A DNA stretch of 46,439 nucleotides from a virus. The DNA is taken from IMG/VR virus record IMGVR_UViG_3300001282_000991, positions 1 to 46,439 of that record; one strand, given 5' to 3'. Below the pieces are notes generated by a model that was not told the DNA's origin, ran no database searches, and saw only the letters and a program-made list of their open reading frames with translations. Below, piece after piece: positions 2 through 20,978 of this stretch (positions are counted from its first letter, which is position 1; every line of letters starts with the position of its first letter). The translations under genes and the position numbers were made by a program.

Positions 2-145
2 GCAAAGCAATTTCAACTTTTACTAAATAGTCCAGGAATTGGTGTAACTGTCACACAAAATAACTTGACTGTCGCTGACTCTGCGAAAATGGAAATAACA
101 TGCACGACTGGACCATGTAATGGATACTCTTACACAAAGAACTAA
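2..145 (+). CDS. C-terminal end of an unidentified protein (5' truncated)
   Basis: An open frame enters from the left edge and runs 47 codons to a TAA at 143-145. The visible end is beta-prone (Val/Thr-rich) and carries two cysteines close to the C terminus (TCTTGPCNGY), which suggests a secreted or extracytoplasmic domain, but this is a weak inference. It overlaps the start of the following cyclase gene by 26 bases in another frame, which points to translational coupling and possibly a shared function. In bacteria, CHASE2 cyclases often sit next to FecR-domain proteins; nothing visible here proves that identity. The family is not recognised. Confidence 0.5.
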   Translation, partial: AKQFQLLLNSPGIGVTVTQNNLTVADSAKMEITCTTGPCNGYSYTKN

Positions 146-3237: not shown

Positions 3238-3266
3238 ATTATACTAAAAACACGTTAATTTGTCAA
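3238..3266 (-). promoter_or_regulatory. Perfect-consensus sigma70 promoter (leftward)
   Basis: On the minus strand TTGACA (3261-3266), a 17-base spacer and TATAAT (3238-3243) match the sigma70 consensus at all twelve positions. It reads toward the 90-residue gene ending at 2939. Such strength suggests immediate-early expression by unmodified host RNA polymerase. Confidence 0.88.
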
Positions 3267-3297
3267 GCCCCTATTTTTCATGTTTTATGGCTTGACA
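3261..3297. repeat. Inverted repeat spanning both divergent -35 boxes
   Basis: TGTCAAGCC (3261-3269) and GGCTTGACA (3289-3297) are perfect 9-base inverted copies separated by 19 bases. Each arm contains the -35 hexamer of one of the two divergent promoters. This could simply reflect the shared GGCTTGACA promoter element, or be a binding site for a regulator acting on both promoters. Confidence 0.6.
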
Positions 3298-3320
3298 ATT
3301 TCGTTCGAATAGGGTATAAA
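3292..3320 (+). promoter_or_regulatory. Strong sigma70 promoter of the radical SAM operon
   Basis: TTGACA (3292-3297), 17-base spacer, TATAAA (3315-3320). It reads into the gene at 3346, whose ATG is preceded by AGGAGAA, and from there into the long overlapping operon. No other clear promoter or terminator is seen before the end of that operon. Confidence 0.85.
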
Positions 3321-3345: not shown

Positions 3346-3747
3346 ATGACTATGCACCTCATGTCTCATGCGTACACCACCACTAATACGAAGAAGCGCA
3401 AGACCACGAACAAGGGCGTAACTGCCAAGTATGCACAGGACTGGGTTGATTACAACAAGCAGATGAAACGGATTGGTTGTAAAACTAAGACCTTCGACGA
3501 GTATGTCCAATATCGCCACGGCAATTATAAACCCAAGTTGCGTGGTACACCCTTCCCCGATTACCAAGTGAGCGACCATCGTCAAAAGTATCCTTCTGGT
3601 GATGGTCTTGGCGTAACCTTTGCTCGCAAGGAGAATACATATACAGGTACGCTGATTAAGGGAATCGCAACTATGCATAAATCAAATGCAGTTCCCATCA
3701 TGAATGATGAGCAAGCAATTGAAGTAGCAAGGATGCGGCGAGGTTGA
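3346..3747 (+). CDS. Conserved phage protein of unknown function (133 aa)
   Basis: 133-residue basic protein. The first 35 residues are Thr/Lys-rich and probably disordered. The C-terminal segment TMHKSNAVPIMNDEQAIEV resembles a short motif I associate with hypothetical proteins of marine T4-like phages. A good ribosome binding site (AGGAGAA) and a near-consensus promoter lie upstream. Its TGA overlaps the TTG start of the first radical SAM gene (TTGA), so it leads that operon. It lacks the features of a peptide precursor for the radical SAM enzymes and looks more like an ordinary phage protein that happens to be first in the unit. Confidence 0.85.
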   Translation: MTMHLMSHAYTTTNTKKRKTTNKGVTAKYAQDWVDYNKQMKRIGCKTKTFDEYVQYRHGNYKPKLRGTPFPDYQVSDHRQKYPSGDGLGVTFARKENTYTGTLIKGIATMHKSNAVPIMNDEQAIEVARMRRG

Positions 3748-5060
3748 ATGTAAAACAAAAGTTAGATTCAGTAGGACATGGATTCTGCCCGCAGAAGTGG
3801 AGATGGTTAGCACTATATCTTCACTCTGGGCACAAGCACAGTTGTCATCATCCACCACCTCTGCATATTGCTCTAGAAGAGATCGCTAAAGATCCCGCAG
3901 CATTACATAACACCTCACACGAGAAGCAGCAACGCAAGACGATGTTGGAAGGTGGTAGACCAGATGAGTGCTCTTACTGCTGGAGTATTGAGGACATCAA
4001 TAAAGTCAGCGATCGTTTCATTAAAAATGCTGTTGGTCCTAATAACCTATTTGATCTCGATGAAGAGATAGAAATTCTTAGGAATACTCCATGGGCTGAA
4101 AATGTTAATCCATACAATATGGAAGTCAGTTTTAGTAATGCGTGTAACTTCAAGTGTGGTTACTGTTGCCCATCATTCTCTTCTCTCTGGGAAGATGATA
4201 TTAAACAGAACGGAGATTATGATTTAAATTATAATCCATATGAATTGCGAAATAAGATTTACTCTGAGAAAGAATATAATCCCTACGTTGAGGCATTCTG
4301 GAAATGGTGGCCTAATTTAAAAAATGACTTAAAGGTCTTTCGCATAACTGGTGGCGAACCATTAATGACTGCCAATACTTTCAAATTGCTTGATATGCTA
4401 AGAGAGGATGGCAACCCAGAGTTATTGCTTCAGATCAATACTAATCTTGGAGTCACGAATCGTAAGGTCTTGGATTTTTGTTCGCGAGCACAAGAATTGA
4501 TCGAGAAGAAACATGTCAAAAATATTAGAGTCTTTACCAGTTTAGAATGCACAGGTAAACAGGCAGAATACATTCGTCGTGGTATTAACTACGAATTGTT
4601 TCTGCAAAATATTAATACTGTATTAGAAACCGTACCTACTGCATATCTAAGTTTCATGACAACGTATAATGTATTAACTGTTCCATATTTCAAAGATTTT
4701 TTGCAGTTAATTGTAGAACTTCGTGAAAAATGGGGAGAACGAATACTCATTGATATTCCTCACCTCAAAGAACCTCCTTACTGGACAATGAACATTCTAC
4801 CTAAAGAATTTGGTAGATATATAGACAGTGATGTTGAATACATGAAGCAAAATGGATTTCGTGATTTCGAGATTAAAAAGATGGAACGAATACAAGAATA
4901 TTTCTATAATGATGCGCATAATATAACAGAAGAATATAGATTAAGTGCTAGAAAAGATTTTGCTAAATTCTTTCCGGAATATGATCGCAGAAATAAAAGT
5001 AATTTAATTGACATTTTTCCTGAGTTTGCTGAATTTTTAGAATGGTGTAAGGAATTATAA
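3744..5060 (+). CDS. Radical SAM enzyme 1 (twitch/SPASM-like N-terminal module)
   Basis: 438 residues. The radical SAM 4Fe-4S motif CNFKCGYC gives Cys134, Cys138 and Cys141, and the SAM-contacting GGEP is at 203-206. Before the core lies a cysteine module of the type usually found after the core in SPASM/twitch enzymes: CPQKW, then SCHHPPP, then ECSYCW, likely to bind a second iron-sulfur cluster. The conserved KQAEYIRRG segment follows the core. The start is TTG at 3744, overlapping the upstream stop; the nearby ATG at 3748 is followed at once by a stop, and a later start would remove the first cysteines. Substrate unknown. It shares a 36-base identical patch with radical SAM gene 2. Confidence 0.92.
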   Translation: MNVKQKLDSVGHGFCPQKWRWLALYLHSGHKHSCHHPPPLHIALEEIAKDPAALHNTSHEKQQRKTMLEGGRPDECSYCWSIEDINKVSDRFIKNAVGPNNLFDLDEEIEILRNTPWAENVNPYNMEVSFSNACNFKCGYCCPSFSSLWEDDIKQNGDYDLNYNPYELRNKIYSEKEYNPYVEAFWKWWPNLKNDLKVFRITGGEPLMTANTFKLLDMLREDGNPELLLQINTNLGVTNRKVLDFCSRAQELIEKKHVKNIRVFTSLECTGKQAEYIRRGINYELFLQNINTVLETVPTAYLSFMTTYNVLTVPYFKDFLQLIVELREKWGERILIDIPHLKEPPYWTMNILPKEFGRYIDSDVEYMKQNGFRDFEIKKMERIQEYFYNDAHNITEEYRLSARKDFAKFFPEYDRRNKSNLIDIFPEFAEFLEWCKEL

Positions 5061-5063
5061 GAC

Positions 5064-5645
5064 ATGGTTAATTTTGATATTGTAATGAATTGGATGGAAT
5101 ACATCCGCAATAATCCAGAGAATGCGTATAGATTCTCGGAGAACTTCTGGCCAAGTCAAATCGAGAGCAAGAAATGGTTACTTGAACACATATCTCATAC
5201 TGATAAATCTATTGTAATTTTCGGTGGATGGTATGGAGTTCTTGCACAGTTTATTGCGCATAAGTTTCCTGATGTTCAAATTGTAACTACTGATGTGGAC
5301 CATGGTTGTAAAAAAGTATTCGATGCTATCGATGGTTATTATCAAGATATCCGTTTTCGGCAACATGACATGCAAAAAGGCATGCCAATCAATTTACATC
5401 CCGATCTCGTGATCAACACTAGCAGCGAACATATAACACAAGAAGTTTATGATGCGTGGTGGAACTCTATTCCCAGGGGGACTAAATACATCGTCCAAGG
5501 AAATAATCTAGAAAATCATGAGCATGTTCGATCTGCCAGTAATCTAGAGGAATTCTTACAAATCAACAGATTTAACGAACCAGAATACGCTGGTATGTTG
5601 AAGTGCGGGCATTTCTATAGATACATGGCAGTTGGTTATAAATGA
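5064..5645 (+). CDS. Class I SAM-dependent methyltransferase-like protein
   Basis: 193 residues with a Rossmann-type SAM-binding pattern: glycine motif I in IVIFGGWYGVLAQF (about 50-63), acidic residues closing strand beta2 in VTTDVD, and a VINTSSEH segment in the motif IV region where catalytic residues usually lie. The family is seen in marine phages, with unknown methyl acceptor. It lies three bases after radical SAM gene 1 and its stop overlaps the start of radical SAM gene 2 (ATGA), so it belongs to the same pathway operon. It is the only conventional methyltransferase among the eight radical SAM genes. Confidence 0.8.
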   Translation: MVNFDIVMNWMEYIRNNPENAYRFSENFWPSQIESKKWLLEHISHTDKSIVIFGGWYGVLAQFIAHKFPDVQIVTTDVDHGCKKVFDAIDGYYQDIRFRQHDMQKGMPINLHPDLVINTSSEHITQEVYDAWWNSIPRGTKYIVQGNNLENHEHVRSASNLEEFLQINRFNEPEYAGMLKCGHFYRYMAVGYK

Positions 5646-7174
5646 GCAATGAATATCATGATGTGACAGAAAAGATGAAAGAGCGACTGAAGTCTGCTAG
5701 TTCGTCGATGTGTCTTGCAAAATGGAATATGGTCAGTATGCACTTGACCAATGGCAAGACGCACAGTTGCTATCATCCTCCTACTCATGACATTCCGCTA
5801 GAGGGTCTTTCTGAAAATCCAGGATTGCTCCACAATACTCCTCAGAAAATCGAAGAACGTGCTATGATGCGCAAGGGCGAGCGACCAAAGGGTTGTTCGT
5901 ATTGTTGGCGTATTGAAGATGCAGGTCATACGAGCGATCGACACTATCGCAGCAGCGAATGGTGGAACTCTCCTGATTTCGAAAAGATTACTCTTGGAGA
6001 TTCTCAACTTGATGCTTCGTGGACTCCCGCATACGTGGAAGTAAATTTCAATCAGGCATGCAATTTTAAATGTTTGTATTGTAGTCCACATCTAAGTTCT
6101 GCTTGGGAAGAAGAAATCGTAAAGCATGGACCGATTCAGATAACTGACGCAAGACATAACGACATTGATGCACTCGCTCGTATGAATCTGATGCCTAGGA
6201 AGGTTGCGAACCGAGAAAATCCCTACGTTGAGGCATTCTGGAAATGGTGGCCTGACCTGTATAAGAATCTAAAGATTTTCCGAATGACAGGCGGCGAACC
6301 TCTAATTGATCATAATACGTGGAAAGTTCTAGACTATGTCGACGAACATCCCAACTCTCTGCTCGAGGTAAGTATAACCAGCAATCTATGTCCCCCGAAA
6401 CCTGACATTTTTGATAAGTTTATTTCGAAGGTCCAGAAACTAGAAGAAGTCAGAGTATGGGAAAATCCAGAGCGTCTTAATCCAGATAGTGGCAATCATT
6501 GGTATGTTGCTCCAGCAATTAAGCACTTCTCTCTTTTTGTAAGTTGTGACAGTGTCGGTAAGCAAGCAGAATATATTCGGACTGGTATGGAATATGATGT
6601 ATTGCGTTCGAATGTATCCAAATTCCTACAATCAACGGATGGGTCAAGCGTTACTTTTATTAATACTTTTAATATTCTAAGTGTTCCTGGGTTGCGAGGG
6701 TTTTTGGAATTAATCTTAGAACTTCGTGAAGAATTTGCCTTCGATAAACAAGAACGAAAAATAATTCAACCACCTGATCACAATGGATTCAAGCATCCTC
6801 CGTTTGTTCGTAACGCTGCGCAACGAGTTTGGTTTGACATACCAATGCTCCACAGTCCTTCGTGGTTGAATATGAAATTACTTCATGAAGAAACTGAGAT
6901 TATTGAACAGTTCGAAGACTGCTTACAATTCATGCGCGATAACGTTCAGAAAGAAGATTATAACAGAAGTCTGCGTGGATTTAAACCGTATGAAATTGAC
7001 AAGGTTCAACGTGACCTAGATATATTGAAGGCAGGAATGGATCCTGCCCAGAAGCAACTAGACATGAAACGTTTTGCTGAGTATGTAGACGAGATGGACA
7101 AAAGAAGAAACACTGATTTTATGATGACCTTCCCTCAATTAATTAATTTCTACAATAAGTGTAAGGATCTGTAA
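5642..7174 (+). CDS. Radical SAM enzyme 2 (HPP subgroup)
   Basis: 510 residues. Cluster cysteines 140, 144 and 147 in CNFKCLYC; GGEP at 217-220. The N-terminal module reads CLAKW, then SCYHPP, then GCSYCW. It is longer than its neighbours because of insertions between the cluster motif and GGEP and a Pro-rich segment at about 375-410 (IIQPPDHNGFKHPP). KQAEYIRTG is conserved as in gene 1. Start ATG overlaps the methyltransferase stop; the gene ends in a TAATG junction with radical SAM gene 3. The block of residues 193-204 is encoded by DNA identical to gene 1, indicating recent duplication or gene conversion. Confidence 0.93.
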   Translation: MSNEYHDVTEKMKERLKSASSSMCLAKWNMVSMHLTNGKTHSCYHPPTHDIPLEGLSENPGLLHNTPQKIEERAMMRKGERPKGCSYCWRIEDAGHTSDRHYRSSEWWNSPDFEKITLGDSQLDASWTPAYVEVNFNQACNFKCLYCSPHLSSAWEEEIVKHGPIQITDARHNDIDALARMNLMPRKVANRENPYVEAFWKWWPDLYKNLKIFRMTGGEPLIDHNTWKVLDYVDEHPNSLLEVSITSNLCPPKPDIFDKFISKVQKLEEVRVWENPERLNPDSGNHWYVAPAIKHFSLFVSCDSVGKQAEYIRTGMEYDVLRSNVSKFLQSTDGSSVTFINTFNILSVPGLRGFLELILELREEFAFDKQERKIIQPPDHNGFKHPPFVRNAAQRVWFDIPMLHSPSWLNMKLLHEETEIIEQFEDCLQFMRDNVQKEDYNRSLRGFKPYEIDKVQRDLDILKAGMDPAQKQLDMKRFAEYVDEMDKRRNTDFMMTFPQLINFYNKCKDL

Positions 7175-8730
7175 TGGGTAGAAAACAAACTGAAGATTTT
7201 CTCGAATTCAAACAGAGAATGATTGATCCGATATCTGAAACATTTTGCGCCGCAAAATGGTATAATGCTACCATTTGGTTGGGTCATGGTCAAACAACAT
7301 CATGCCATCACCCTCCTGGTCATTATATTGACCCGAAAGAATTAGAAGCAAATCCCTCAGCGATTCATAATACACAGCATAAGAAATTAATGCGTAAGAT
7401 GATGCAAGAAGGTAAGAGACCAAACGAGTGTGAGTATTGTTGGAAGGTCGAGGACATTGGTCGCAACAACGTTTCTGATCGAGTATACAAGACAGAAATC
7501 TTTACAGACGCAGACATTCAAAAGGCAGCGACTATGCCTTGGGAAGAAGATGTAACTCTCAGAACTCTCGAGATTAGTTTTGACCGCACCTGCAATTTTG
7601 CCTGTTCATATTGTAATCCAGGATTTTCTACAACGTGGGTTAAGGACATTAGGACACATGGTCCATATCGCAACATTCAAAGTGATGGTCGAGGACATTT
7701 TATCGACGATTCTCCTTGGGCAAAACCCGCAGCAGACAAGGAAGAAAATAATCCATATATTCAAGCGTTTTGGAAATGGTGGGAATCAGATCTTCAAGAT
7801 AATTTACAGGAAATCCGCATCACAGGTGGCGAACCTTTGATGGCAAACAGCGTTTGGAAATTGTTTGACTGGTTTAAGAACAATCCAGAGAAGGGCAAGA
7901 AACTTAGGTTTGCTATGAATTCTAATCTTGTTCCAAAGAAAGCATTACTCGATAAACTAATTGAGATGTCGCAACACGTCCCAGATTTTGAAGTCTATAC
8001 TAGTAATGAATCCTATGGTAAACACTCAGAGTATATTCGCGATGGTATGATATATGATCAATGGAAGGACAACATTCATCGATTGATTACTGAAGGTAAT
8101 CTGAAAAGATTGCATGTGATGATGACTATTAACAGTCTATGTTTGTCATCTATTACTGAATTTATGGACGATATGCTTGACCTAAAGCGAACATATGGTT
8201 ATCAGTATCCAACCATGACCTTGAATCTTCTGCGATTTCCTAGTTTCCAGAGTCCTGCTATTCTTCCAATTCATATCAAGGAATTCTACAAAAAGAAGTT
8301 GGAAAACTGGTTAGCAGATATCGTAAGCAAGGAAGAACAAGACCAGAACGGTAGGTTGCTCTTCACCCACATGGAACGTGCGCATGTCCAGCGGTTGATC
8401 GATTACCTTGATGTAATTAAAACTCCGCACATGAATACCAGTGAAGAAGCAAAACTCTGGAACGATTTTAAGAACTTCTACCTACAGTATGACGTTCGTC
8501 GTGGTAAGGACTTCCGCGAAACCTTCCCTCCAATTTTTGTTGATTTTATCAATAGTGTCGATGTCCCTGTTCCAACAAAGGAAGAAATTCTCGGTAAAAA
8601 TTATCGAGAAGATACTGGATTGAAAGAACGAGCAGGTAATCCTGCTACTGCTGAAGAAGGATATATCAGCGACGAACTCGCGCATGGATGGAATACCAAG
8701 ACAGATAGTTTAGGCGCAAATGAGCGATAA
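7174..8730 (+). CDS. Radical SAM enzyme 3 (HPP subgroup)
   Basis: 518 residues, the longest of the eight. Cysteines 140, 144 and 147 in CNFACSYC; GGEP at 218-221. N-terminal module CAAKW, TSCHHPPG and ECEYCW. NPYIQAFWKWW aligns with the duplicated block of genes 1 and 2 but its DNA has diverged, so it was not part of the recent conversion. A C-terminal tail of about 50 residues beyond the family core is Glu/Asn/Gly-rich and probably disordered. It overlaps the next gene by 11 bases. Confidence 0.93.
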   Translation: MGRKQTEDFLEFKQRMIDPISETFCAAKWYNATIWLGHGQTTSCHHPPGHYIDPKELEANPSAIHNTQHKKLMRKMMQEGKRPNECEYCWKVEDIGRNNVSDRVYKTEIFTDADIQKAATMPWEEDVTLRTLEISFDRTCNFACSYCNPGFSTTWVKDIRTHGPYRNIQSDGRGHFIDDSPWAKPAADKEENNPYIQAFWKWWESDLQDNLQEIRITGGEPLMANSVWKLFDWFKNNPEKGKKLRFAMNSNLVPKKALLDKLIEMSQHVPDFEVYTSNESYGKHSEYIRDGMIYDQWKDNIHRLITEGNLKRLHVMMTINSLCLSSITEFMDDMLDLKRTYGYQYPTMTLNLLRFPSFQSPAILPIHIKEFYKKKLENWLADIVSKEEQDQNGRLLFTHMERAHVQRLIDYLDVIKTPHMNTSEEAKLWNDFKNFYLQYDVRRGKDFRETFPPIFVDFINSVDVPVPTKEEILGKNYREDTGLKERAGNPATAEEGYISDELAHGWNTKTDSLGANER

Positions 8731-10111
8731 GATTCTTCCTAAATGGGAAAGGGGAAGAGTGCTTCCCGATAGTCCCAACAAGGTGTTTTGTACTGCTCCA
8801 TGGACGCACACATACATTAGTCCACAGGCGGAAAGAAGACTGTGTTGTGCAAGTAGAGAGCAACACAGTTTTCAGAAACAGTACATCGATGCGAGCAATG
8901 ACTCCAAGTATGGAGAAGTTACTGAGAGCAAAACAGAAGTAGATGACTTTAATCCAGTTTCTTTGAAGGAACACTGGAACAGCGAATACATGAAAGACAT
9001 TCGTCGCAAATTAATGGCAGGTGAACGCATCTCACAGTGTGATGTTTGCAACGACGATATTCTCAGTGTGAGCAATTATAGAAGTTGGTTTACTGGAGCA
9101 TTGTTTAATGATAAAATTCAAGAATGCTTTGACTCAACTGACGAAACTGGGTACACTACAATGGAACCCATATCATTTGATTATCGCTTTAGTAATCTAT
9201 GCAATTTTAAATGTAGAATGTGCGGTGAGCAACTAAGTTCTACGTGGGAAACTGAAAAGCGTAAGTATAATCTTTGGACTCCAGAGAGTCAACCATTTAT
9301 GGTTCCTGAGATTAAGAAAAAAATGCAGCAGTTTCAGAAAGAAGTAATAGAAGAAGAATTTCGGGATGCTATTACACGAGGAATTGTTGAAGAATGTTAT
9401 TGGGTCGGTGGTGAACCCTTGATGTATGATATACATTGGTGGGCGCTGCAAGAAATGGTAGACAATGGATCTTCTAAGAACTGTCATCTTCGATATAATA
9501 CAAATCTAAGCAGAGTTGATTACTTCGGTAAGAATCTTTATGATTATCTTCCTCAGTTTAAGAACTGGTTGATATGTGCTAGTATAGATGGAACTGAAGA
9601 GATCGTAGAGTTTATTCGTAAAGGAATAGTTTGGAAAGAGTGGTTAGAGAACTTTAAGAAAGGTCTTGAGTTACCACACGGCAAGGATCGGATGGTTCTT
9701 GACCTGACTATTACTGGACCTGGAATGTTTAGTCTTAAAAATCTATTCGACCTCAGCAAAGAACTAGATGTTCGTATTGAAACTAAAATTATGTTTGCGT
9801 TTCATCCAGATATTGTTTTAAGTCCGTTCGCTTGGCCTAGACATATTCTTGATCGCCACATCGACTCGCTATTGGAGTACATGATTCCACGTGGGACTAA
9901 TAAGCAAATTACGTTGATTAAAACATTACAAGAAATGAAAAATAGACCGACATTCCAAGAACAATGGCCTGATCAGGCAGAACAAGCATTTAAAAATGGA
10001 TCAAATTATCAAAAGATTCTTGATCACATTAGAAAAGATTCCAATGTAAATTTGAGAACTATATACTCTGAAGACCCAGAATTATACGATTGGTGGACAC
10101 GATATGACTAA
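8720..10111 (+). CDS. Radical SAM enzyme 4 (CC subgroup)
   Basis: 463 residues. Cysteines 161, 165 and 168 in CNFKCRMC; GGEP at 230-233. Its N-terminal module differs from the first three enzymes: CTAPWTHTYISP, then LCCAS with adjacent cysteines, then QCDVCNDD. That is the classical SPASM/twitch pattern, placed ahead of the core. The core includes VEFIRKG where the others have AEYIRRG. It differs enough to act on a different substrate or step. It ends by overlapping radical SAM gene 5 by 8 bases. Confidence 0.92.
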   Translation: MSDKILPKWERGRVLPDSPNKVFCTAPWTHTYISPQAERRLCCASREQHSFQKQYIDASNDSKYGEVTESKTEVDDFNPVSLKEHWNSEYMKDIRRKLMAGERISQCDVCNDDILSVSNYRSWFTGALFNDKIQECFDSTDETGYTTMEPISFDYRFSNLCNFKCRMCGEQLSSTWETEKRKYNLWTPESQPFMVPEIKKKMQQFQKEVIEEEFRDAITRGIVEECYWVGGEPLMYDIHWWALQEMVDNGSSKNCHLRYNTNLSRVDYFGKNLYDYLPQFKNWLICASIDGTEEIVEFIRKGIVWKEWLENFKKGLELPHGKDRMVLDLTITGPGMFSLKNLFDLSKELDVRIETKIMFAFHPDIVLSPFAWPRHILDRHIDSLLEYMIPRGTNKQITLIKTLQEMKNRPTFQEQWPDQAEQAFKNGSNYQKILDHIRKDSNVNLRTIYSEDPELYDWWTRYD

Positions 10112-11336
10112 GTTTCCGATTAAAACTGATACTGCTTGTCAATTTAAGTGGACTTGGAGCACGATTTTCCTTTCGAAAGGAACAACATCTAGTTGTCACA
10201 GATGTAAAAACTGGGAGTTAAATGAGATCGATTTTAAAGATTTCCACAACCACCCAGGAAAGGTTCAAGATCGAGAAAAGATGCTTGATGGACAATGGCC
10301 TGGTAATGGTTGTGAATATTGTAAACGAATTGAAGACGCAGGTGGTAACAGCGAACGAACAGCATATATCAATGATGCTGATTATTGCCCACCAGAACTT
10401 GAAGATAACCCATTCGCTACTAAAGTAACACCAAGAATCCTTGAAGTATATTTTACTAATCTATGCAATCAAGCGTGTGTTTATTGCAGTCCATTGTTCA
10501 GTTCGGTAATCGAACAGGAAATAAAGAAGTATGGACCTCTTGAAACTGAATACGATCTAGAGGGTTCATTTAAACCAAAAGAAAATTACCTTGAACTCAA
10601 AGATAAATTTTGGGAATGGATGGAAGAACACTCAACTGAATTATACGACTTTCAAATTCTCGGCGGAGAACCTCTGTATCAACCTGAATTTGAAGAGTGT
10701 CTTGCGTATTTCGAGAGAACGAGTCATCCAAATTTAAATTGGAAGATCTTTTCGAATCTGAAACATCCCTCCGATAAATTTCTAGAAAAGATTCAAAAAA
10801 TAGATAAACTGGTTGAATCGGGTAAATTGAAATCCTTTGGTATTGTGTGTAGCATGGATTGCTGGGGGGATGAGGCAGAATTTGCTCGCCATGGAATGAG
10901 TTTGCAAAATTGGGAAGAAAATTTTAATACTCTATTGAAAAGTAAGAATGTTCGAATTAATATACAGGCAACACTGTCCTCTGTGACTTTACCAACAGCA
11001 TATGTTTTTGTTGACAAACTCGTAGAATGGTCCAAGATCAAAAATATTAATTATGGTGCAAATGTTGTTGCGGTACCATCATTCATGGATCCTGCTATTT
11101 TCGGTTCTGAATTAAAACCGTTTATAGATAAATTAAATGATTCTCTCGCCAAAAGTCCTTGGAAAGATGCGGCAGCATATATTGCTGGTTTTGGTAATAT
11201 GATCATTTCAACAGAACCTGATTCTGAAAAATTACAGCGACTAAAAAACTACTTAAACAGACTAGACCAGCGAAGGGGACAAAGTTGGAGAAGAGTATAT
11301 CCATGGATGGAGAAAAGTTTTGACAAATTTATCTAA
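10104..11336 (+). CDS. Radical SAM enzyme 5 (divergent HPP-like)
   Basis: 410 residues. Cysteines 121, 125 and 128 in CNQACVYC, where Gln replaces the usual Phe or Leu; GGEP at 187-190. The N-terminal module is CQFKW, then SCHRCKN in place of SCHHPP, then GCEYCKR. It therefore belongs near genes 1-3 but has lost the His-Pro-Pro signature, which could change the ligands of a second cluster. It has the AEFARHG equivalent of the conserved AEYIRxG segment. Start and stop both overlap neighbours. Confidence 0.9.
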   Translation: MTKFPIKTDTACQFKWTWSTIFLSKGTTSSCHRCKNWELNEIDFKDFHNHPGKVQDREKMLDGQWPGNGCEYCKRIEDAGGNSERTAYINDADYCPPELEDNPFATKVTPRILEVYFTNLCNQACVYCSPLFSSVIEQEIKKYGPLETEYDLEGSFKPKENYLELKDKFWEWMEEHSTELYDFQILGGEPLYQPEFEECLAYFERTSHPNLNWKIFSNLKHPSDKFLEKIQKIDKLVESGKLKSFGIVCSMDCWGDEAEFARHGMSLQNWEENFNTLLKSKNVRINIQATLSSVTLPTAYVFVDKLVEWSKIKNINYGANVVAVPSFMDPAIFGSELKPFIDKLNDSLAKSPWKDAAAYIAGFGNMIISTEPDSEKLQRLKNYLNRLDQRRGQSWRRVYPWMEKSFDKFI

Positions 11337-12516
11337 GGTTTGTTCGTTACCATTTACGCATCTAGCGACTCATCCCAACGGACACACTAGTTTTTGTTGC
11401 ATCAGCGACCATACAAATTGTGCAAGTCATGCCAAGCGAGGGGGTAAATCTATCTCATTGAATGATGTTTCAATTCGCGAAATGCACAATAGCGAAACAT
11501 ATACACAAGTCAGATTGGATATGCTTGCTGGCAAAGAACCTGATGCATGTAAACGCTGCTACGACGAAGAGCGATCTGGTATAAAAAGTAAGAGACTCGA
11601 AGAAAACGAGAGATATCTAGCATCTTCCATGGAGGTGATAAATTCCATGAACCCAGACGGTCACATTGATAATATGGATTTTCAGTTTATCGAGTTGCGC
11701 CTTGGTAATGTTTGTAATTTAAAATGCAGAACTTGTAATCCAGTTTCTAGTAGTAAATGGGTCGTAGAACATGCAGAACTTAGCAAAGAACTTGATTTCG
11801 TTACAGACTATTCTAACGTAGAATCTGGAGTTTGGTTTGAACTGGATAGATTCTGGGGAGAATTATTAAATAATTCTCCAAACCTGAAACGAATTTATGT
11901 CAATGGCGGTGAACCGACTTTAGTAGAAAAACATTTTGCGTTTCTTCATAATCTAATTGATTCTGGTCGTGCGAGCAATATTGACCTGTGGTATAATATA
12001 AATGTTACTAATCTTCCGCACGAGTTGATTAATATATGGGGCAAATTTAAATCAATTACTGTTACTGCCAGTATCGATGACCTGTTTAAAAGAAACGATT
12101 ATATTCGTTCAGGCAGTCAATGGGCAGATATTGTATTCAATTTATCAAAACTTAAACTCACAGAAACAATTGATCTGAGTATTTGTCAAACATTGAGTAT
12201 TTACAATATTTTCTATGTTGATAAATTTTATAATTTCTTTAAAGATTATCGTATTCACCATAACTGGTGTTACGATCCCGCATTCTTAAGTCCTTGGAAT
12301 TTACCAGATGATGTGAAGAAAACAATTATTGATAATTGTAAGTCTATGCCAGATTATGAACGAAATAATATTGAACAAACTCTCATGAAACCAAGAAACG
12401 AAACTCAATTTAAGCAATTTATTGCATACAACAGAAAACTTGATCTTATGCGCAAAACAAAATTTTCGGACATATTCCCAGAACTAGCAGCGGCGATTAA
12501 CTATGATGGACAATAA
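11320..12516 (+). CDS. Radical SAM enzyme 6 (CC subgroup, TTG start)
   Basis: 398 residues. Cysteines 132, 136 and 139 in CNLKCRTC; GGEP at 196-199. N-terminal module CSLPFTHLATHPNG, then FCCIS, then ACKRCYDEE. The start is TTG at 11320, inside the previous gene, with GGAG about eight bases upstream; no ATG lies before the first module cysteine, and the paralogues begin at the same place relative to it. The KSKRLEENERY segment after the module is shared with genes 7 and 8. Confidence 0.9.
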   Translation: MTNLSKVCSLPFTHLATHPNGHTSFCCISDHTNCASHAKRGGKSISLNDVSIREMHNSETYTQVRLDMLAGKEPDACKRCYDEERSGIKSKRLEENERYLASSMEVINSMNPDGHIDNMDFQFIELRLGNVCNLKCRTCNPVSSSKWVVEHAELSKELDFVTDYSNVESGVWFELDRFWGELLNNSPNLKRIYVNGGEPTLVEKHFAFLHNLIDSGRASNIDLWYNINVTNLPHELINIWGKFKSITVTASIDDLFKRNDYIRSGSQWADIVFNLSKLKLTETIDLSICQTLSIYNIFYVDKFYNFFKDYRIHHNWCYDPAFLSPWNLPDDVKKTIIDNCKSMPDYERNNIEQTLMKPRNETQFKQFIAYNRKLDLMRKTKFSDIFPELAAAINYDGQ

Positions 12517-13720
12517 ACATTTTTGTTTAATACCTTGGACGCACATGCATACGTGGCCGAACGGCAATGCGTATATGTGTTGTGGCGCAGATCCAGACAA
12601 ACCCATAGGAGTTCTGTCAGACGAGACAACTCTCAAAGATCTGTGGAATTCAGAACAAATGAAAAGAAACAGACTATTAATGCTTGAAAACAAGCATGTT
12701 CCTGAATGTGTTCGTTGTTATGAGATCGAAGCAAATGGTGGACGCAGTTTACGAATTGATCATAACATTACTTTCAAACATCACATGGACATATTAGAAG
12801 AAACGAATCCAGATGGAAGTTTGGATCGTCTAAACATGCCATATGTTGACTTTCGTTTTAGCAATTTCTGCAACTTGCGCTGTAGAACATGTGGTCCAGA
12901 TCTTAGTAGTAAATGGGCATCTGATCATGCGAAACTAAATCCGTCCACTGTTGAAAAATATTCGAAGGTTATTAAACCAGACATTAATCCAACAATTTTC
13001 TGGGACCAGATTGATGAAATTTTCCCTACAATCGAACGAATCTATTTCGCTGGTGGCGAACCTCTTATTATGGAAGAACACTACAGACTATTAGATATGC
13101 TAATAGAAAACGGAAGAACAGATGTTGTTTTATTATACAACACCAATTTTACTTCTCTGAAATATAAAGATAAAAATGTATTAGATTACTGGAAACAGTT
13201 TAGGAATGTGACTGTTTGCGCTTCGTTGGATTCTTGGGGGTCTCGAGCAGAATATATGCGCAAAGATTTGCGATGGGATATTGTTGAACAGAACTTTAGA
13301 GAGGTTAAACAACGCTGCCCGCATGTTCGTCTCGACATTGGATTAACATTGAGCATATTCAATTTTTCTACACTGGTCGAGTACTATGAATATATGGTTG
13401 ATAATAAATTCATTCATCCTGATGGATTGAATATTAATATTTTAACAAACCCTGTCTGGTATAAACCATCCTGCATTCCGATCGAGTATAGATTACAAAT
13501 TGCTGAGAAATATAAACAGAAATTAGATTATCTTATATCAAATAAATTGTGCGGAAGTATTATGCGAGATAGATGGCAACTTGCAATCAATTATATCACA
13601 AACGAGGAAGAACCGAAAAATCTTTCGGCATTTAAAAATTTGACTCGCACTATGGATAGACTTAGATCTGAATCTTTTGTGGAAATCTTTCCAGAATTGA
13701 AGTTTTTGTTCGATGAGTGA
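12503..13720 (+). CDS. Radical SAM enzyme 7 (CC subgroup)
   Basis: 405 residues. Cysteines 123, 127 and 130 in CNLRCRTC; GGEP at 184-187. Module CLIPWTHMHTWPNG, MCCGAD and ECVRCYEIE is almost a textbook SPASM half. It shares TCGPDLSSKW with the CNPVSSSKW block of gene 6, so genes 6 and 7 are close paralogues. Overlaps gene 6 by 14 bases and gene 8 by 8 bases. Confidence 0.92.
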   Translation: MMDNKHFCLIPWTHMHTWPNGNAYMCCGADPDKPIGVLSDETTLKDLWNSEQMKRNRLLMLENKHVPECVRCYEIEANGGRSLRIDHNITFKHHMDILEETNPDGSLDRLNMPYVDFRFSNFCNLRCRTCGPDLSSKWASDHAKLNPSTVEKYSKVIKPDINPTIFWDQIDEIFPTIERIYFAGGEPLIMEEHYRLLDMLIENGRTDVVLLYNTNFTSLKYKDKNVLDYWKQFRNVTVCASLDSWGSRAEYMRKDLRWDIVEQNFREVKQRCPHVRLDIGLTLSIFNFSTLVEYYEYMVDNKFIHPDGLNINILTNPVWYKPSCIPIEYRLQIAEKYKQKLDYLISNKLCGSIMRDRWQLAINYITNEEEPKNLSAFKNLTRTMDRLRSESFVEIFPELKFLFDE

Positions 13721-14873
13721 AACCTTTTGTATCTTGCCATTTATTCATCTTGAAGCAAGATCAGATAGTTTCATTGCGCCTTGTTGTATGAGTCAAGAAT
13801 TCTATCGCAAAGAAGATGGCACATATTATACTCTAAGTAAAGACACATTAAGTGAAGTTTGGAATTCTAAATCTATTGAAACGCTGCGCGAGAATTTGAT
13901 TGGTGGCAAAAAACCTACTGCGTGTGAATCTTGCTGGAAAGAGGAAGATCTTGGGAAAGAGAGCAAGAGAATCCGAGAGAATCGTCGGTGGGGCGTAGAT
14001 ACTACACCATCTTTGAAATTTCTTGACTTAAAACTGGGCAATACTTGTAATTTGAAGTGTAGGATTTGTAGTCCAGGAAGTTCGAGCAATTGGTTGAAAG
14101 AACATAAAGATCTCTATGGATCAGATGTAGTAAGTAGTATTGCTCGTATGGTCAACTCAGATAAACGAAGTGTGATGCAGTGGCCTGAAAACAATCCTGC
14201 CTTTTGGGATGATCTTGATTCTCATCTCGAAAAAGTAGAATTATTTGAAATTTATGGTGGCGAACCATTTTTAATATCAAATCACTTTTCAGTATTGAAG
14301 AAAAGTATTGACAAGGGTTATAGTAAAAACCAGAGAATCCACTACAACACAAATGGAACTATTTTTCCGGAAGATGCGGTAAATAATATTTGGCCGCATT
14401 TCAAAGAAGTTGATATTATGATCAGTATTGATGGAATCGAAGAGCAATTTGAATATCAACGATATCCTGCGCAATGGGAAGCAGTACTTGCAAATATTCA
14501 TAAATTTCGAGAGAGTTTTTCAGGTGACTTGCAAATTTGTATGACAGTTAGTTCGTTGAATGTTTACTATCTTCCAGAGTACTTAGAATATTTCAACAAT
14601 ATTGGAATTAATGTTTGGTTGAATATATTATATCATCCATCTGTATATTCTGTGTGCCATTTAAGTCAAAGAGTAAAAGAACACGTTATAGAAAAACTAA
14701 ACAACAATCTTTCGCTAAATCAAGATATGCAAGCAATAATAAATTATATGAGTAGTTCTACTGACGATATGCAAACAAAATTTATAGAAAAGGTAATACT
14801 ACATGATAAGTATCGTAAACAGAATTATTTTTCTACGTTTAAAGAGTTCGGGGAACTATTATGCGAAATTTAA
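13713..14873 (+). CDS. Radical SAM enzyme 8 (CC subgroup, shortest)
   Basis: 386 residues, the shortest member. Cysteines 112, 116 and 119 in CNLKCRIC; GGEP at 182-185. Module CILPFIHLEA, PCCMS and ACESCWKEED. The segment corresponding to AEYIRxG is altered to EQFEYQRYP, so this enzyme departs most from the common core after the GGEP motif. Last radical SAM gene of the run; its end overlaps a 33-codon gene. Confidence 0.9.
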   Translation: MSETFCILPFIHLEARSDSFIAPCCMSQEFYRKEDGTYYTLSKDTLSEVWNSKSIETLRENLIGGKKPTACESCWKEEDLGKESKRIRENRRWGVDTTPSLKFLDLKLGNTCNLKCRICSPGSSSNWLKEHKDLYGSDVVSSIARMVNSDKRSVMQWPENNPAFWDDLDSHLEKVELFEIYGGEPFLISNHFSVLKKSIDKGYSKNQRIHYNTNGTIFPEDAVNNIWPHFKEVDIMISIDGIEEQFEYQRYPAQWEAVLANIHKFRESFSGDLQICMTVSSLNVYYLPEYLEYFNNIGINVWLNILYHPSVYSVCHLSQRVKEHVIEKLNNNLSLNQDMQAIINYMSSSTDDMQTKFIEKVILHDKYRKQNYFSTFKEFGELLCEI

Positions 14874-14962
14874 TTGATAAAATCTATAACTGGTGGCATC
14901 GTCGGAAATTGAAGAAAAGATTTAAAGAATTGTCAAAGAGAGACCCGTTCATCTATGATTAG
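14861..14962 (+). CDS. 33-residue conserved-looking microprotein
   Basis: The frame ATG 14861 to TAG 14962 encodes a 33-residue, strongly basic peptide ending in KRDPFIYD, with a Trp pair (NWWHRRKLKKR). It overlaps the radical SAM gene before it by 13 bases and the SGNH gene after it by 8, as expected for a coupled operon gene and not for chance. Short proteins ending in a similar DPFIY motif are, to my recollection, common in marine T4-like phages. It could be an amphipathic membrane- or nucleic-acid-binding peptide, or less likely a substrate peptide for the radical SAM enzymes. No function is established. Confidence 0.65.
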   Translation: MRNLIDKIYNWWHRRKLKKRFKELSKRDPFIYD

Positions 14963-15764
14963 GGGAAAATATAAACGTCTTGTTGCTTACGGGTGTAGTT
15001 TTACTGCTGGTGATGAATTGGCAGATTCGCAGGTTCTAGGTATTCCTGAGGAAGAAGTTGATGCTCTTAAACGGGCAGGAATTTCAAGGGAAGATTTATA
15101 TGGAAACTTGCGCTCAAGAACAGATGAAGTCCTAGAAATAAATAAAACTCTTGCTTGGCCGCGATGGTTCGCAGATTATTATGGAGTTCCATACTCAAAT
15201 CGTGCCAGACCTGGTGGATCAATTCAACAGATGCTATATCGCGTCGAACGAGACTTGGCAAATAATCTTATAGACCCTGATGACCTAGTAATTATTGGAT
15301 TGTCTAGTATGTACCGTTGGTTTCAATTTGACGAGAAGGGGAATGAATTATCTTGGGTTTTTACAAAGGCCTTTGGAGCTAAGGGCAGATTTCTAAAATT
15401 TAATGAATCATTGGTCGAGAATTACGTTCATGAATATAACATTATTTGGCAATATTATCTTTGTTTGAATTACCTACAAATGCTTGCTGATAGACATCCA
15501 AATATTAAACTGATACATGCAATTAGTCCATTTTCACACGAAAAAGATTTTGTTGCAGGAAATAATAAATTGAGAAAAGAGTTTATGAAAACCATAGAAT
15601 CTATGAAATTTCCTGCTTTGCTGAACGAAAAATATGGAATGGGTCAACTCTATAGTCACATACATCCAGAAAAAAGTACTCATGGATATGGACATCCAAA
15701 GATACAATTCCAAAAACAATTTGCTTGGTTGGTTGTTAATTGGATTGAAATGTTAGATGATTGA
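14955..15764 (+). CDS. SGNH/GDSL-type hydrolase-like protein
   Basis: 269 residues with SGNH blocks: Ser15 in YGCSFTAGDEL (block I), RPGGSIQQM at about 82-90 (block II glycine region), GLSSMYRW at about 115-122 (block III, with Ser in place of the usual Asn) and a C-terminal HGYGHP at about 241-246 supplying the histidine of block V. Members act as esterases, lipases or acetyl-transfer enzymes on glycans and lipids. No signal peptide, so it acts inside the infected cell. It overlaps the carbamoyltransferase start and follows the microprotein, placing it in the radical SAM operon. Confidence 0.8.
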   Translation: MIRGKYKRLVAYGCSFTAGDELADSQVLGIPEEEVDALKRAGISREDLYGNLRSRTDEVLEINKTLAWPRWFADYYGVPYSNRARPGGSIQQMLYRVERDLANNLIDPDDLVIIGLSSMYRWFQFDEKGNELSWVFTKAFGAKGRFLKFNESLVENYVHEYNIIWQYYLCLNYLQMLADRHPNIKLIHAISPFSHEKDFVAGNNKLRKEFMKTIESMKFPALLNEKYGMGQLYSHIHPEKSTHGYGHPKIQFQKQFAWLVVNWIEMLDD

Positions 15765-17181
15765 ATGGGGAATATCTGCCGCAGCACATGATGCTGCTCT
15801 TACTGTAGTGCATGGTGAACGAATTTTATTTGCTTCGCACGCAGAACGGTATAGCGGAATCAAAAATGACAAGCATCTAAATGACGATCTGATCAATGCA
15901 GCATTGAAGTTCGGCAAACCAGAAAAGATTCATTGGTATGAAAAACCAAAACTTCGAGGAATGCGCAGACTACTATCAGGACAAGGAATTGTTCGCTTTA
16001 GTGTGAGGCAATATCTCAAAGAATTCGGCCTCGAAGTTCCAGTCGAATTTGCTTCACACCACGAGTCGCATGCTGCTGCAGGTTTCTATACTTCTACTTT
16101 CGATTCGGCAACTGCTCTTGTGATCGATGCTATCGGTGAATTTGACACAGCATCTATTTGGTTGTGTGATGGGGAGAAGATGAAGAAGAGGTGGAGTATG
16201 GATTATCCGAAATCTCTTGGATTATTTTATTCTGCTATAACAGACAGAGTTGGATTGAAACCAAACGAAGATGAATATATCCTCATGGGTATGGCGGCGT
16301 ATGGTAATCCTGACAAGCACTATTGGGATATGCGCGAACTCTATGAGCGAGTAAATCTACATCGTGGTTGTAAGTGGTGGTTGAAAAAAGAAGATCCTGA
16401 TCACTACGATCTTGCCGCATCGGCGCAAAAGATATATGAAGAAGAATTTGATAAACTTCTATATCGCGCAAAGAAAAATGATCCAGCACAAAATAATCTA
16501 GTATTATCAGGGGGTTGCGCACTTAATTGCTCTGCAAATCATATTGCGAAAAAATATTTCGATAATGTCTGGATTATTCCTAACCCAGGAGACGCTGGTA
16601 GTTCTCTTGGTGCTATTGCTGCAAACAACCGCAGAAAACTAAACTGGCAAGGTCCATATCTCGGCGAGAATATTGAAACCGAATATCCCGTAGAAAATCT
16701 ATTGACTTCTTTGCGTAAAGAGGGTATAGTTGGAGTTGCTAGTGGGAGAGCAGAGTTTGGTCCGAGAGCATTTGGTAATCGAAGTCTGCTCGCTGATCCT
16801 ACTAGAAAAGATATTAAGGATAAAGTAAATGCCATCAAACGCAGACAAAAGTTTAGACCCTTTGCCCCAGTCATCCTTGAGCAATATGCAGCAGAGTATT
16901 TTGACATGCCAGTTGAAGTATCCCCTTACATGCAGTTTACTGCAAGATGCAAATTTCCTACAAAGTTCCCTGCTATCATTCACACTGATGGCACATCTCG
17001 CGTCCAAACTGTAAACAAGCAGCAACATCCAGGATTGTTTGAGTTGTTGACACGGTGGCACGAAGAAACAGGTTGCCCGATGTTACTGAATACTAGTCTC
17101 AACATCAAGGGATTTCCCATGGTAAATGACGAGAAAGATGCTGCTATGTTTCAGGGCATTTATAAAGTGAAGGTCTTTTAA
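15757..17181 (+). CDS. NodU/CmcH/TobZ-type O-carbamoyltransferase
   Basis: 474 residues. The N-terminal part is an ASKHA/Kae1-like domain: WGISAAAHDAALT, then HHESHAAAG at about 100-108 with the metal-binding His-x3-His, VIDAIGEFDTAS, and LSGGCALNC at about 249-257. The C-terminal domain carries EFGPRAFGNRS, RPFAPV, DGTSRVQTV and LLNTSLNIKG. These enzymes make carbamoyl-adenylate from carbamoyl phosphate and ATP and transfer the carbamoyl group to a hydroxyl on a sugar, antibiotic or nucleoside. Known marine phages carry relatives. It closes the radical SAM operon, so a hydroxyl on the operon's final product is the likely acceptor (inference). The protein ends slightly early after FQGIYKVKVF. 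Confidence 0.92.
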   Translation: MIEWGISAAAHDAALTVVHGERILFASHAERYSGIKNDKHLNDDLINAALKFGKPEKIHWYEKPKLRGMRRLLSGQGIVRFSVRQYLKEFGLEVPVEFASHHESHAAAGFYTSTFDSATALVIDAIGEFDTASIWLCDGEKMKKRWSMDYPKSLGLFYSAITDRVGLKPNEDEYILMGMAAYGNPDKHYWDMRELYERVNLHRGCKWWLKKEDPDHYDLAASAQKIYEEEFDKLLYRAKKNDPAQNNLVLSGGCALNCSANHIAKKYFDNVWIIPNPGDAGSSLGAIAANNRRKLNWQGPYLGENIETEYPVENLLTSLRKEGIVGVASGRAEFGPRAFGNRSLLADPTRKDIKDKVNAIKRRQKFRPFAPVILEQYAAEYFDMPVEVSPYMQFTARCKFPTKFPAIIHTDGTSRVQTVNKQQHPGLFELLTRWHEETGCPMLLNTSLNIKGFPMVNDEKDAAMFQGIYKVKVF

Positions 17182-17192: not shown

Positions 17193-17480
17193 ATGGCGGA
17201 TATTCTAAAATTCCCTGATAAGTTTGTTAACGGAAAGCGGTTATACCGAATACCATTATATTCGGATATGGACATTGATGTTGTTTTATTCTGCGTAAAC
17301 GCATTCGGCGAAACAGATAATCGTGTAATTATTGACGATCTGATCAAAATGGATCCCGTCGATGTCATAAAATGTATTGACTTTTCGCTTGAATCAGAGT
17401 ATATTTCTAATACTACGAAAGCACATATCGAATGCATTCGAAAGTCAATCGAGGAAATTCCCTTTACAATTGAGAACTAA
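17193..17480 (+). CDS. Hypothetical protein (95 aa)
   Basis: 95-residue acidic protein, starting MADILKFPDKFVNGKRLYR, with no recognised domain and no membrane segment. It has little leader sequence after the AATAAATA box. The next gene follows after six bases, so the two are co-expressed. Confidence 0.75.
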   Translation: MADILKFPDKFVNGKRLYRIPLYSDMDIDVVLFCVNAFGETDNRVIIDDLIKMDPVDVIKCIDFSLESEYISNTTKAHIECIRKSIEEIPFTIEN

Positions 17481-17486
17481 TATATT

Positions 17487-18029
17487 ATGAATATTTTTTA
17501 CCTTGACAGTAATGTCACCAAATGCGCAGAGTACCATAACGACAAGCATGTTGTCAAGATGATTCTAGAGTATGCCCAATTACTTTCAACAGCACATCGT
17601 GTTCTTGATGGTAAAGAATATATTGATTCTTCCAGTGGACGAAAAATCAAACGTTGGCGATTAGAGGATACTTCTCTTGAGGCACAATTATACAAGGCAA
17701 CACACATCAATCATCCGAGTGCTGTCTGGGTTCGCCAGTCTAACAATAATTATACTTGGCTTATGTGTCTATTCCAGTCCCTTCTTATGGAATACACTCA
17801 TCGATACGGCAAGATGCATTCTTGCAATCGTCTAGTCTATTGGTTACGTAAACCTCCTGTTAATATTCCTGTTGATTATTTGACGCAACCTACTCCTGCT
17901 ATGCCAGACGAATACAAGGTATCAGGCGATTCCTTGCAGTCTTATCGTAACTATTATCTCGGTGCAAAAAATAATATGGCAAAATGGAAAAATCGTCCTA
18001 TTCCAGAGTGGTGGAGCGACGCAGTTTAA
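17487..18029 (+). CDS. Conserved phage protein (180 aa), possible DNA glycosylase-like
   Basis: 180 residues. The N terminus has the pattern MNIFYLDSNVTKCAEYHNDK followed by HVVKMILEYAQLLSTAH, which I associate with a family common in marine T4-like phages. The family vaguely recalls proteins labelled pyrimidine dimer DNA glycosylase, but that link is weak and no catalytic residue can be assigned. Conserved HP (INHPSAVWVRQS) and Trp-rich C terminus (WKNRPIPEWW). Its stop TAA overlaps an AATAAATA box and a strong terminator follows, so it ends this transcription unit. Confidence 0.7.
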   Translation: MNIFYLDSNVTKCAEYHNDKHVVKMILEYAQLLSTAHRVLDGKEYIDSSSGRKIKRWRLEDTSLEAQLYKATHINHPSAVWVRQSNNNYTWLMCLFQSLLMEYTHRYGKMHSCNRLVYWLRKPPVNIPVDYLTQPTPAMPDEYKVSGDSLQSYRNYYLGAKNNMAKWKNRPIPEWWSDAV

Positions 18030-18167: not shown

Positions 18168-18920
18168 ATGACAAGAAGAAAAAACAATCTCCAAGTTGTA
18201 ACGAATTCTGAACCAAAGGTAACTATTGAAAAGAGTAAACTGTGCAAAGTTAAATACGAAGATCTAAAACACATTCAACCAAAAACACAGAATCAACGAC
18301 TCTTCTTCGATCTTTACAATCAACAGTCCACTGCAATGCTACTACATGGTGTAGCAGGAACAGGAAAAACTTTTATTTCCATGTATAAAGCACTTGAAGA
18401 AGTTCTGGACCCAACAACAGATTATGAACGTCTTGTTGTTGTTCGTTCAGCAGTACCATCAAGAGATATCGGACACCTTCCAGGTGACGAGAAGGAAAAA
18501 ACAGAGGTCTATACTTTACCTTATGTTGAGATATGTGATGACTTACTTAATCACATCCAACCATTCCTGCGTCTGCAGGAGCAAAAGACCGTTCATTTCC
18601 TAATCACCTCGTTCGTGCGTGGTATCACACTTGATAATTCAGTGATCATCGTTGACGAATGTCAGAACATGACTGACATGGAACTCAACTCTATTATGAC
18701 TCGTATCGGTAAGAACTCCAAGATTATCTTCTGTGGAGACTTCCGTCAAACCGACCTAAATAAAAAGAACGATATGTCAGGATTGCAAAAGTTTATTGCA
18801 ATCGCTAATATGATGCCCTCGTTTAAGACGGTCGAGTTTTCCGTGAATGATATTGTCAGATCGAAACTTGTCAAGGAATATATCCTTGCTCGGTTAGATT
18901 ATGAAGAAAAACATAATTAA
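18168..18920 (+). CDS. phoH: PhoH-like P-loop ATPase
   Basis: 250 residues. Walker A GVAGTGKT at 61-68, Walker B VIIVDECQN with Asp163 and Glu164, sensor-like IIFCGDFRQTD, and the family block VVVRSAVPSRDIGHLPGD. PhoH ATPases are widespread in marine phages and are linked in bacteria to RNA processing; their phage role is unsettled. The gene follows a terminator and has a candidate AAGGA in the leader (AATAAGGACTGTTC before ATG), so it is probably transcribed from a promoter or read-through not clearly visible. The exonuclease gene comes next with its own promoter. Confidence 0.93.
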   Translation: MTRRKNNLQVVTNSEPKVTIEKSKLCKVKYEDLKHIQPKTQNQRLFFDLYNQQSTAMLLHGVAGTGKTFISMYKALEEVLDPTTDYERLVVVRSAVPSRDIGHLPGDEKEKTEVYTLPYVEICDDLLNHIQPFLRLQEQKTVHFLITSFVRGITLDNSVIIVDECQNMTDMELNSIMTRIGKNSKIIFCGDFRQTDLNKKNDMSGLQKFIAIANMMPSFKTVEFSVNDIVRSKLVKEYILARLDYEEKHN

Positions 18921-19642: not shown

Positions 19643-19811
19643 ACTGTCCGAACAAAGGATGAAAATTTGTTTGGAATGCGAGCATTTAATGCATAAACGC
19701 ATATGCAGTCAATGCGGATGTTTGATGCCTGTAAAAACAAAACTTAATCGTGCATCCTGTCCCAAGGGTAAATGGGGTTCGGTTGGAAAAAAACTTCCTT
19801 GGGAAGCATAA
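19614..19811 (+). CDS. Small zinc-ribbon protein (65 aa or slightly shorter)
   Basis: Four cysteines in CLECEHL and CSQCG form a zinc ribbon, followed by a fifth in ASCPKGKW. This CxxC / CxxCGC / CPxGKW pattern is a common small phage and bacterial protein type of unknown function, perhaps nucleic-acid binding. The start is uncertain: ATG 19614, ATG 19620 or a GTG near 19635 all precede the cysteines. Overlaps the exonuclease gene. Confidence 0.75.
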   Translation: MKMGIIPVSELSEQRMKICLECEHLMHKRICSQCGCLMPVKTKLNRASCPKGKWGSVGKKLPWEA

Positions 19812-19828
19812 AATTTGAAGGTGATAAT

Positions 19829-20951: not shown

Positions 20952-20978
20952 CTTCCTACGTCATGTATAGTATAAATA
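20948..20978 (+). promoter_or_regulatory. Promoter of the tmRNA gene (sigma70, with an overlapping late box)
   Basis: TTGACT (20948-20953), 17-base spacer, TATAAA (20971-20976). The -10 box extends to TATAAATA (20971-20978), a full match to the T4 late consensus, so the same site could serve early and late RNA polymerase. Start expected near 20983. Confidence 0.75.

Follow-up and report, generated by a model that had tools for sequence, protein, structure and literature searches.

An operon encoding eight radical S-adenosylmethionine (SAM) enzymes, a putative methyltransferase, an SGNH-fold protein and a carbamoyltransferase is located in a 46.4-kb viral genome fragment from IMG/VR (record IMGVR_UViG_3300001282_000991). 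We refer to this whole stretch of analysed DNA as the window. Comparison with related viruses reveals that the genes framing this operon are fixed, whereas most of its radical SAM genes belong to a cassette that is exchanged as a block. We propose a serotype-like, swappable tailoring locus that most likely acts on a surface sugar or glycan of either the infected cell or the virion, a reading to which we assign a probability of about 0.42. The initial annotation of this DNA had described a tailoring pathway that is expressed as one operon and strongly selected, and this description is supported by linkage of the genes in many relatives, by purifying selection and by the presence of eight distinct enzymes. 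Its further expectation of one pathway with one product does not hold, since relatives exchange the whole middle block. The locus therefore corresponds to a family of alternative products.

The virus is marine, T4-like and pelagimyophage-like. Its 46.4-kb fragment has the genes of a T4-like marine myovirus, among them those for gp59, gp32, PhoH and several baseplate and tail proteins. A near-DNA search against phage records returned no match to the window.

A fixed frame around an exchanged cassette

The comparison set comprised about 70 IMG/VR loci, with the putative methyltransferase as query returning 32 loci and the carbamoyltransferase (CarT) returning 52. These loci have a common gene order, which begins with curli genes, a CHASE2 cyclase gene, a gene for a 133-amino acid protein, sometimes the first radical SAM gene (R1), and the putative methyltransferase gene. 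A variable cassette follows, and to its right are the genes for CarT, 95- and 180-amino acid proteins, PhoH, an exonuclease, gp59 and gp32. No recognizable putative methyltransferase was found in two related contigs, L069 and L071. The corresponding features of the window are as follows.

120..2171, plus strand: CHASE2 and adenylate/guanylate cyclase protein (PF05226, PF00211); left landmark of the fixed frame, kept upstream of the cassette in relatives
3238..3266, minus strand: perfect sigma70-type promoter, leftward (TTGACA-17-TATAAT), back to back with the operon promoter
3292..3320, plus strand: operon promoter-like sequence, read as TTGACA-17-TATAAA
3346..3747, plus strand: conserved phage protein of 133 amino acids; first operon gene, fixed frame, with a 4-base overlap with R1
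3744..5060, plus strand: R1, N-twitch radical SAM protein (NF033640, 305 bits); precedes the putative methyltransferase
5064..5645, plus strand: putative class I SAM methyltransferase of 193 amino acids, tentatively read as Rossmann-type; fixed left frame gene
5642..7174, plus strand: R2, N-twitch radical SAM protein (NF033640, 296 bits)
7174..8730, plus strand: R3, N-twitch radical SAM protein (NF033640, 309 bits)
8720..10111, plus strand: R4, N-twitch radical SAM protein (NF033640, 309 bits)
10104..11336, plus strand: R5, N-twitch radical SAM protein (NF033640, 238 bits)
11320..12516, plus strand: R6, N-twitch radical SAM protein (NF033640, 359 bits)
12503..13720, plus strand: R7, N-twitch radical SAM protein (NF033640, 398 bits)
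13713..14873, plus strand: R8, N-twitch radical SAM protein (NF033640, 351 bits)
14955..15764, plus strand: predicted SGNH-fold esterase/acyltransferase-like protein
15757..17181, plus strand: TobZ/NolO-type carbamoyltransferase, CarT (PF02543, PF16861); fixed right frame gene
17193..18029, plus strand: two small conserved genes (95 and 180 amino acids), right frame
18168..18920, plus strand: PhoH-like ATPase, right landmark

Between the putative methyltransferase and CarT genes, at least 14 arrangements of the middle block are found, ranging in size from two radical SAM genes and one SGNH gene up to seven radical SAM genes. The cassette of the window consists of seven N-twitch radical SAM genes (R2 to R8) and the SGNH gene. 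R1 is located outside of the cassette, before the putative methyltransferase gene. It is carried by L013, L025 and L017, and most other relatives lack it. Some cassettes include radical SAM proteins of another type or proteins that belong to no family. In addition, the cassette of L040 encodes a nucleoside diphosphate (NDP)-sugar epimerase/dehydratase and that of L018 an Asp/Asn beta-hydroxylase. Two further proteins, of 430 amino acids in L040 and 225 amino acids in L018, yielded no PDB matches. Motifs alone suggest glycosyltransferase- and sulfotransferase-like readings for them, and these readings are given no weight here.

The histories of frame and cassette differ. Unrelated cassettes occur on frames that are 92-100% identical, and near-identical cassettes occur in distant phages. 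For example, most frame genes of L018 and L013 are 96-100% identical, but their radical SAM genes are only 27-33% identical. Conversely, the cassettes of L018 and L022 are 79-96% identical, yet their gp59 proteins match at 59% and their CarT proteins at 74%. The same is true of the window and L038, where identities of 85-93% for R3 to R5 and 92% for R2 contrast with 42% for gp59 and 57% for the 180-amino acid protein (h180). Over 315 locus pairs, the correlation between frame identity and cassette identity is 0.29. Unrelated cassettes were found in 10 of the 29 pairs with frame identity of at least 90%, and a common cassette in 22 of the 213 pairs with frames below 80%; some of these pairs are near-duplicate contigs, and the counts are descriptive. 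Presumably, recombination within the frame genes allows the cassette to be swapped between phages as a block.

These comparisons also serve as the search of relatives for the operon and its fixed partners that the initial annotation had recommended. Its expectation of fixed partners was borne out for the frame but not for the gene set between the frame genes, and neither of the contrary outcomes that it had named, scattered genes and loss of motifs, was found.

Radical SAM enzymes and their partners

All eight radical SAM open reading frames (positions 3744-14873) exceed the curated cutoff of 170 bits for NF033640, with scores of 238-398 bits, which confirms the earlier count of eight tandem genes. 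NF033640 is the NCBI 'twitch domain-containing radical SAM' subfamily, in which the twitch domain is located at the N terminus. The CxxxCxxC and GGEP motifs are invariant in 8 of 8 proteins, as had been reported. The proteins also have four invariant N-terminal cysteines (C15, C34, C76 and C79 in R1) that had not been recognized, and these residues fit the N-terminal twitch cluster of the family. No assigned reaction for the N-twitch radical SAM family was found, and the radical SAM neighbourhoods in Vibrio phages (K566, KVP40) offered nothing informative.

We also constructed a FastTree phylogeny of 149 proteins, in which the deep branches are weak. The eight enzymes occupy eight positions in this tree, at least seven of which are forced by supported branches, and they are mixed with bacterial proteins. 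Each has phage or bacterial neighbours that are closer than its operon mates, and recent tandem duplication of the eight genes is ruled out. There is almost no doubt that the eight enzymes represent separate subfamilies and that the cassette is exchanged as a block. Since the subfamilies are separate, each enzyme probably carries out a different C-H or redox step. R1 to R7 are under purifying selection, with ratios of nonsynonymous to synonymous substitution rates (dN/dS) of 0.02-0.14 against relatives. Bacterial relatives of these enzymes are mostly from Bdellovibrionota. Two metagenome-assembled genomes (MAGs), G033 (Bdellovibrionota; contig 192, L155-L157) and G027 (contigs 7 and 12; L158-L160), contain 31 and 26 N-twitch radical SAM matches, respectively, many of them in tandem islands.

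The region from position 3346 is very likely a single operon that runs from the promoter at 3292. From the 133-amino acid protein gene through the CarT gene, the junctions measure -4, +3, -4, -1, -11, -8, -17, -14, -8, +81 and -8 bases, where negative values denote overlaps. Only two of these values are positive, in agreement with the initial report that nearly all junctions overlap, and for this reason co-translation is plausible. The sole real gap, and the largest in the operon, is the 81 bases preceding the SGNH gene. A strong promoter had been proposed at 3292, where the promoter-like sequence is indeed found, but the operon starts one gene earlier than had been described, with the 133-amino acid protein gene. 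This arrangement reflects more than chance, because it recurs in many independent contigs and because of the low dN/dS values of R1 to R7.

The putative methyltransferase is 68-85% identical across the 32 loci, and its FGGWYGxLAQF motif region is conserved in 13 sequences. It has no match in Pfam, PHROG or NCBIfam, its profile match to a methyltransferase in the PDB is weak (E 0.37), and the single-sequence fold model is poor, with a predicted local distance difference test (pLDDT) score of 36. The methyltransferase of the initial annotation is therefore retained only as a putative Rossmann-type enzyme. Together with the carbamoyltransferase, it might add shared caps.

The SGNH hydrolase proposed earlier likewise has no Pfam or NCBIfam match, but its AlphaFold model (pLDDT 84.5) resembles SGNH esterases. 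In Foldseek searches with this model, the top PDB matches are the carbohydrate esterase family 2 (CE2) enzyme 2w9x and GDSL esterases, with acetylxylan esterases and the O-acetyltransferase PatB ranking lower. There are 32 PDB matches with E < 0.001, and those listed are mainly SGNH/GDSL enzymes. Residues Ser15 and His247, the presumed catalytic Ser and His, are invariant in ten homologues, whereas no Asn is invariant where block III would be expected. The assignment thus denotes a predicted fold with a catalytic Ser/His pair rather than membership in a curated family. Such a protein could either put on or take off an acyl group. The SGNH gene is the most divergent member of otherwise similar cassettes, with a mean identity of 57% in the commonest type compared to 76-95% for the radical SAM genes. 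This variability would be expected if an acyl decoration were under pressure to vary. Positive selection on this gene cannot be claimed because synonymous sites are saturated.

The carbamoyltransferase is securely identified. It carries the Carbam_trans N and C domains (E 5e-39 and 1e-51), and its PDB relatives are NovN, GdmN and TobZ. At almost every one of the 52 loci it is 76-100% identical, with L093 as an outlier at 52%.

Candidate substrates

A substrate of the carbohydrate type in general, either a surface glycan or a DNA-linked sugar, is somewhat favoured by our analysis, and a surface glycan in particular is a tentative choice with slightly less than even odds. Several observations lean toward carbohydrates. 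The top structural match of the SGNH model is a carbohydrate esterase, and the L040 cassette contributes its NDP-sugar epimerase/dehydratase. Multi-radical-SAM loci in bacterial and MAG contigs adjoin genes for epimerases, DegT, RmlC/RmlD, UDPGP and a group 7 glycosyltransferase. Moreover, the substrates of CarT relatives include aminoglycosides and other antibiotics, and radical SAM gene cassettes have been reported from a glycosyltransferase-rich host recognition cluster in another pelagimyophage group (PMC7029224).

No single item of this evidence is decisive, and other observations weigh against a surface glycan. Family profile searches of the window cassette found no glycosyltransferase, flippase or sugar-nucleotide gene, and matches to carbohydrate esterases are typical of the SGNH fold generally. 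The neighbouring sugar genes come from few contigs, some of which are possibly viral, and few sugar genes are present at the large Bdellovibrionota arrays. Finally, relatives carry a DNA-modification module approximately 10 kb upstream of the locus.

This module bears on the alternative that the cassette decorates phage DNA, an option also raised in the initial annotation and one that we regard as a strong rival, although less likely than a surface glycan. Hydroxymethylated bases would be produced by TET/JBP or another route, a TET-associated glycosyltransferase (TAGT) would add a sugar, and the cassette enzymes would modify that sugar or the base further as protection from restriction. The TET/TAGT module is located beyond the curli operon, in a region that also encodes a DruA-like protein, and its composition varies between phages. 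Representative positions are as follows.

L164, 9535-10872; L166, 11231-15688; L168, 11971-13760: DNA-modification module upstream of the curli operon (TET/JBP, TAGTs, DruA-like protein)

TET/JBP (PF12851) was found in 4 of 12 relatives and TAGT (PF20691) in six, and the cassette is present in all seven relatives that match either family. TAGT homologues in Aeromonas phages are annotated as hydroxymethylcytosine glucosyltransferases. Members of the carbamoyltransferase family modify hydroxyls on antibiotics and sugars, and one phage member is proven to act on 5-hydroxymethylcytosine in DNA (PMC8670742); that phage enzyme is 26% identical to the one in the window. However, in the same study thymidylate synthase accompanied the carbamoyltransferases that were associated with DNA modification. 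Among our relatives, thymidylate synthase/hydroxymethylase (PF00303) was found in 0 of 14 and C5-methyltransferase (PF00145) in 0 of 9, in searches with fixed families that are blind to base-modifying enzymes of a novel type. The 171.6-kb contig G021, apparently complete since its 167-bp ends are near-identical, carries the cassette together with two TAGTs. Neither a profile nor tblastn detected TET in G021, and therefore the cassette is independent of TET; no thymidylate-synthase-type or C5-methyltransferase gene was recognized there either. G018 has TET and lacks TAGT. Furthermore, homologous radical SAM arrays are located in bacterial chromosomes.

Modification of a peptide or protein, yielding a product similar to a ribosomally synthesized and post-translationally modified peptide or altering a virion protein, appears improbable. 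Peptide substrates are frequent among SPASM/twitch radical SAM enzymes, R8 has weak similarity to peptide maturases such as PapB, and the L018 cassette includes an Asp/Asn beta-hydroxylase. However, the twitch domain is N-terminal in the enzymes described here, none of which reaches the cutoff of a known maturase family. There is also no precursor peptide gene beside the radical SAM genes, and the overlapping genes, with a maximum gap of 81 bases, leave no room for one. Least probable is a diffusible small molecule, such as an antibiotic-like compound or anti-defence metabolite, because the cassette includes neither a scaffold-forming enzyme nor an exporter and such an output offers little gain to an economical lytic phage, even though tobramycin, novobiocin and ansamycins are substrates of CarT relatives and the N-twitch profile weakly matches the aminoglycoside dehydrogenase BtrN.

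Returning to the surface glycan proposal, we tentatively picture a phage 'serotype locus' in which sets of radical SAM genes, instead of glycosyltransferase genes, are swapped. The encoded enzymes might give a surface glycan, or sugars attached to phage DNA, a chemical signature that differs even among near-identical phages. A cassette swap would then change the 'serotype', which could, for instance, keep out competing phages or help to avoid recognition.

Neighbouring genes and comparison with known systems

Several nearby genes of the window are also of interest. The cyclase (120-2171) is of the CHASE2 receptor type and is conserved in the phage group (PHROG 35576, for which no function is given); it could possibly generate a cyclic-nucleotide signal during infection. 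A TauD-family dioxygenase gene (19772-20743) is present in the window and in L045 and is missing from many relatives, and thus marks a further presence/absence slot. Another variable slot, between gp32 and the tail genes, holds an 841-amino acid protein encoded on the minus strand (24121-26646), with mostly 27-61% identity to relatives. In addition, there is a transfer-messenger RNA gene (20954-21327) of the permuted, alphaproteobacterial type with the tag ANDNVAFAGYALAA; a loosened pattern for this tag was matched in 0 of 385 genomes belonging to the same class as a Pelagibacter MAG.

With eight radical SAM enzymes in one phage operon, the locus would be a rich source of new chemistry and offers a concrete handle on the N-twitch family. 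Alternative sets reside on the same backbone, so that products can be compared across natural allele swaps, and the exchange pattern suggests that marine phages are engaged in a diversifying arms race around a molecule.

Similar loci have been described in part. Bacterial O-antigen and capsule loci, as well as phage serotype conversion, feature fixed flanks, an exchanged middle and many alleles, but differ in gene content from the window cassette, which encodes neither glycosyltransferases nor a flippase. Pelagibacter phage HTVC008M has a carbamoyltransferase near gp59, gp32, 2-oxoglutarate oxygenases and a curli operon. However, no radical SAM genes are annotated in that region, and its carbamoyltransferase is only 27% identical to that of the window. 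The phage enzyme acting on 5-hydroxymethylcytosine (PMC8670742) is from the same family as CarT but is paired with a thymidylate-synthase-type hydroxymethylase, which the 14 relatives searched here lack.

The closest parallels are from pelagimyophages and other marine T4-like viruses. The pelagimyophage host recognition cluster (PMC7029224, 2020) is a hypervariable island with radical SAM cassettes in group PMP-B, and phages of that class likewise carry the curli genes. Their island sits among structural genes, with VrlC on one side and gp14 on the other, whereas the locus described here is flanked by the curli and cyclase genes and by PhoH-gp59-gp32, and is exchanged as a unit inside a fixed frame. 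Marine T4-like environmental viral genomes with many radical SAM genes have also been reported, including one 183-kb genome with twelve (Nishimura et al. 2017, PMC5332604). There, the radical SAM proteins were counted as Fe-S proteins adjoining Fe-S assembly genes, whereas here they form one swapped operon, and the A-type carrier PF01521, an Fe-S assembly partner, is absent from 12 relatives. In searches of the open-access literature, neither a fixed frame of putative methyltransferase and carbamoyltransferase nor the block exchange was found described. Thus, T4-like marine phages with multiple radical SAM genes were already known, and the present locus is a hypervariable T4-like phage module built of radical SAM enzymes.

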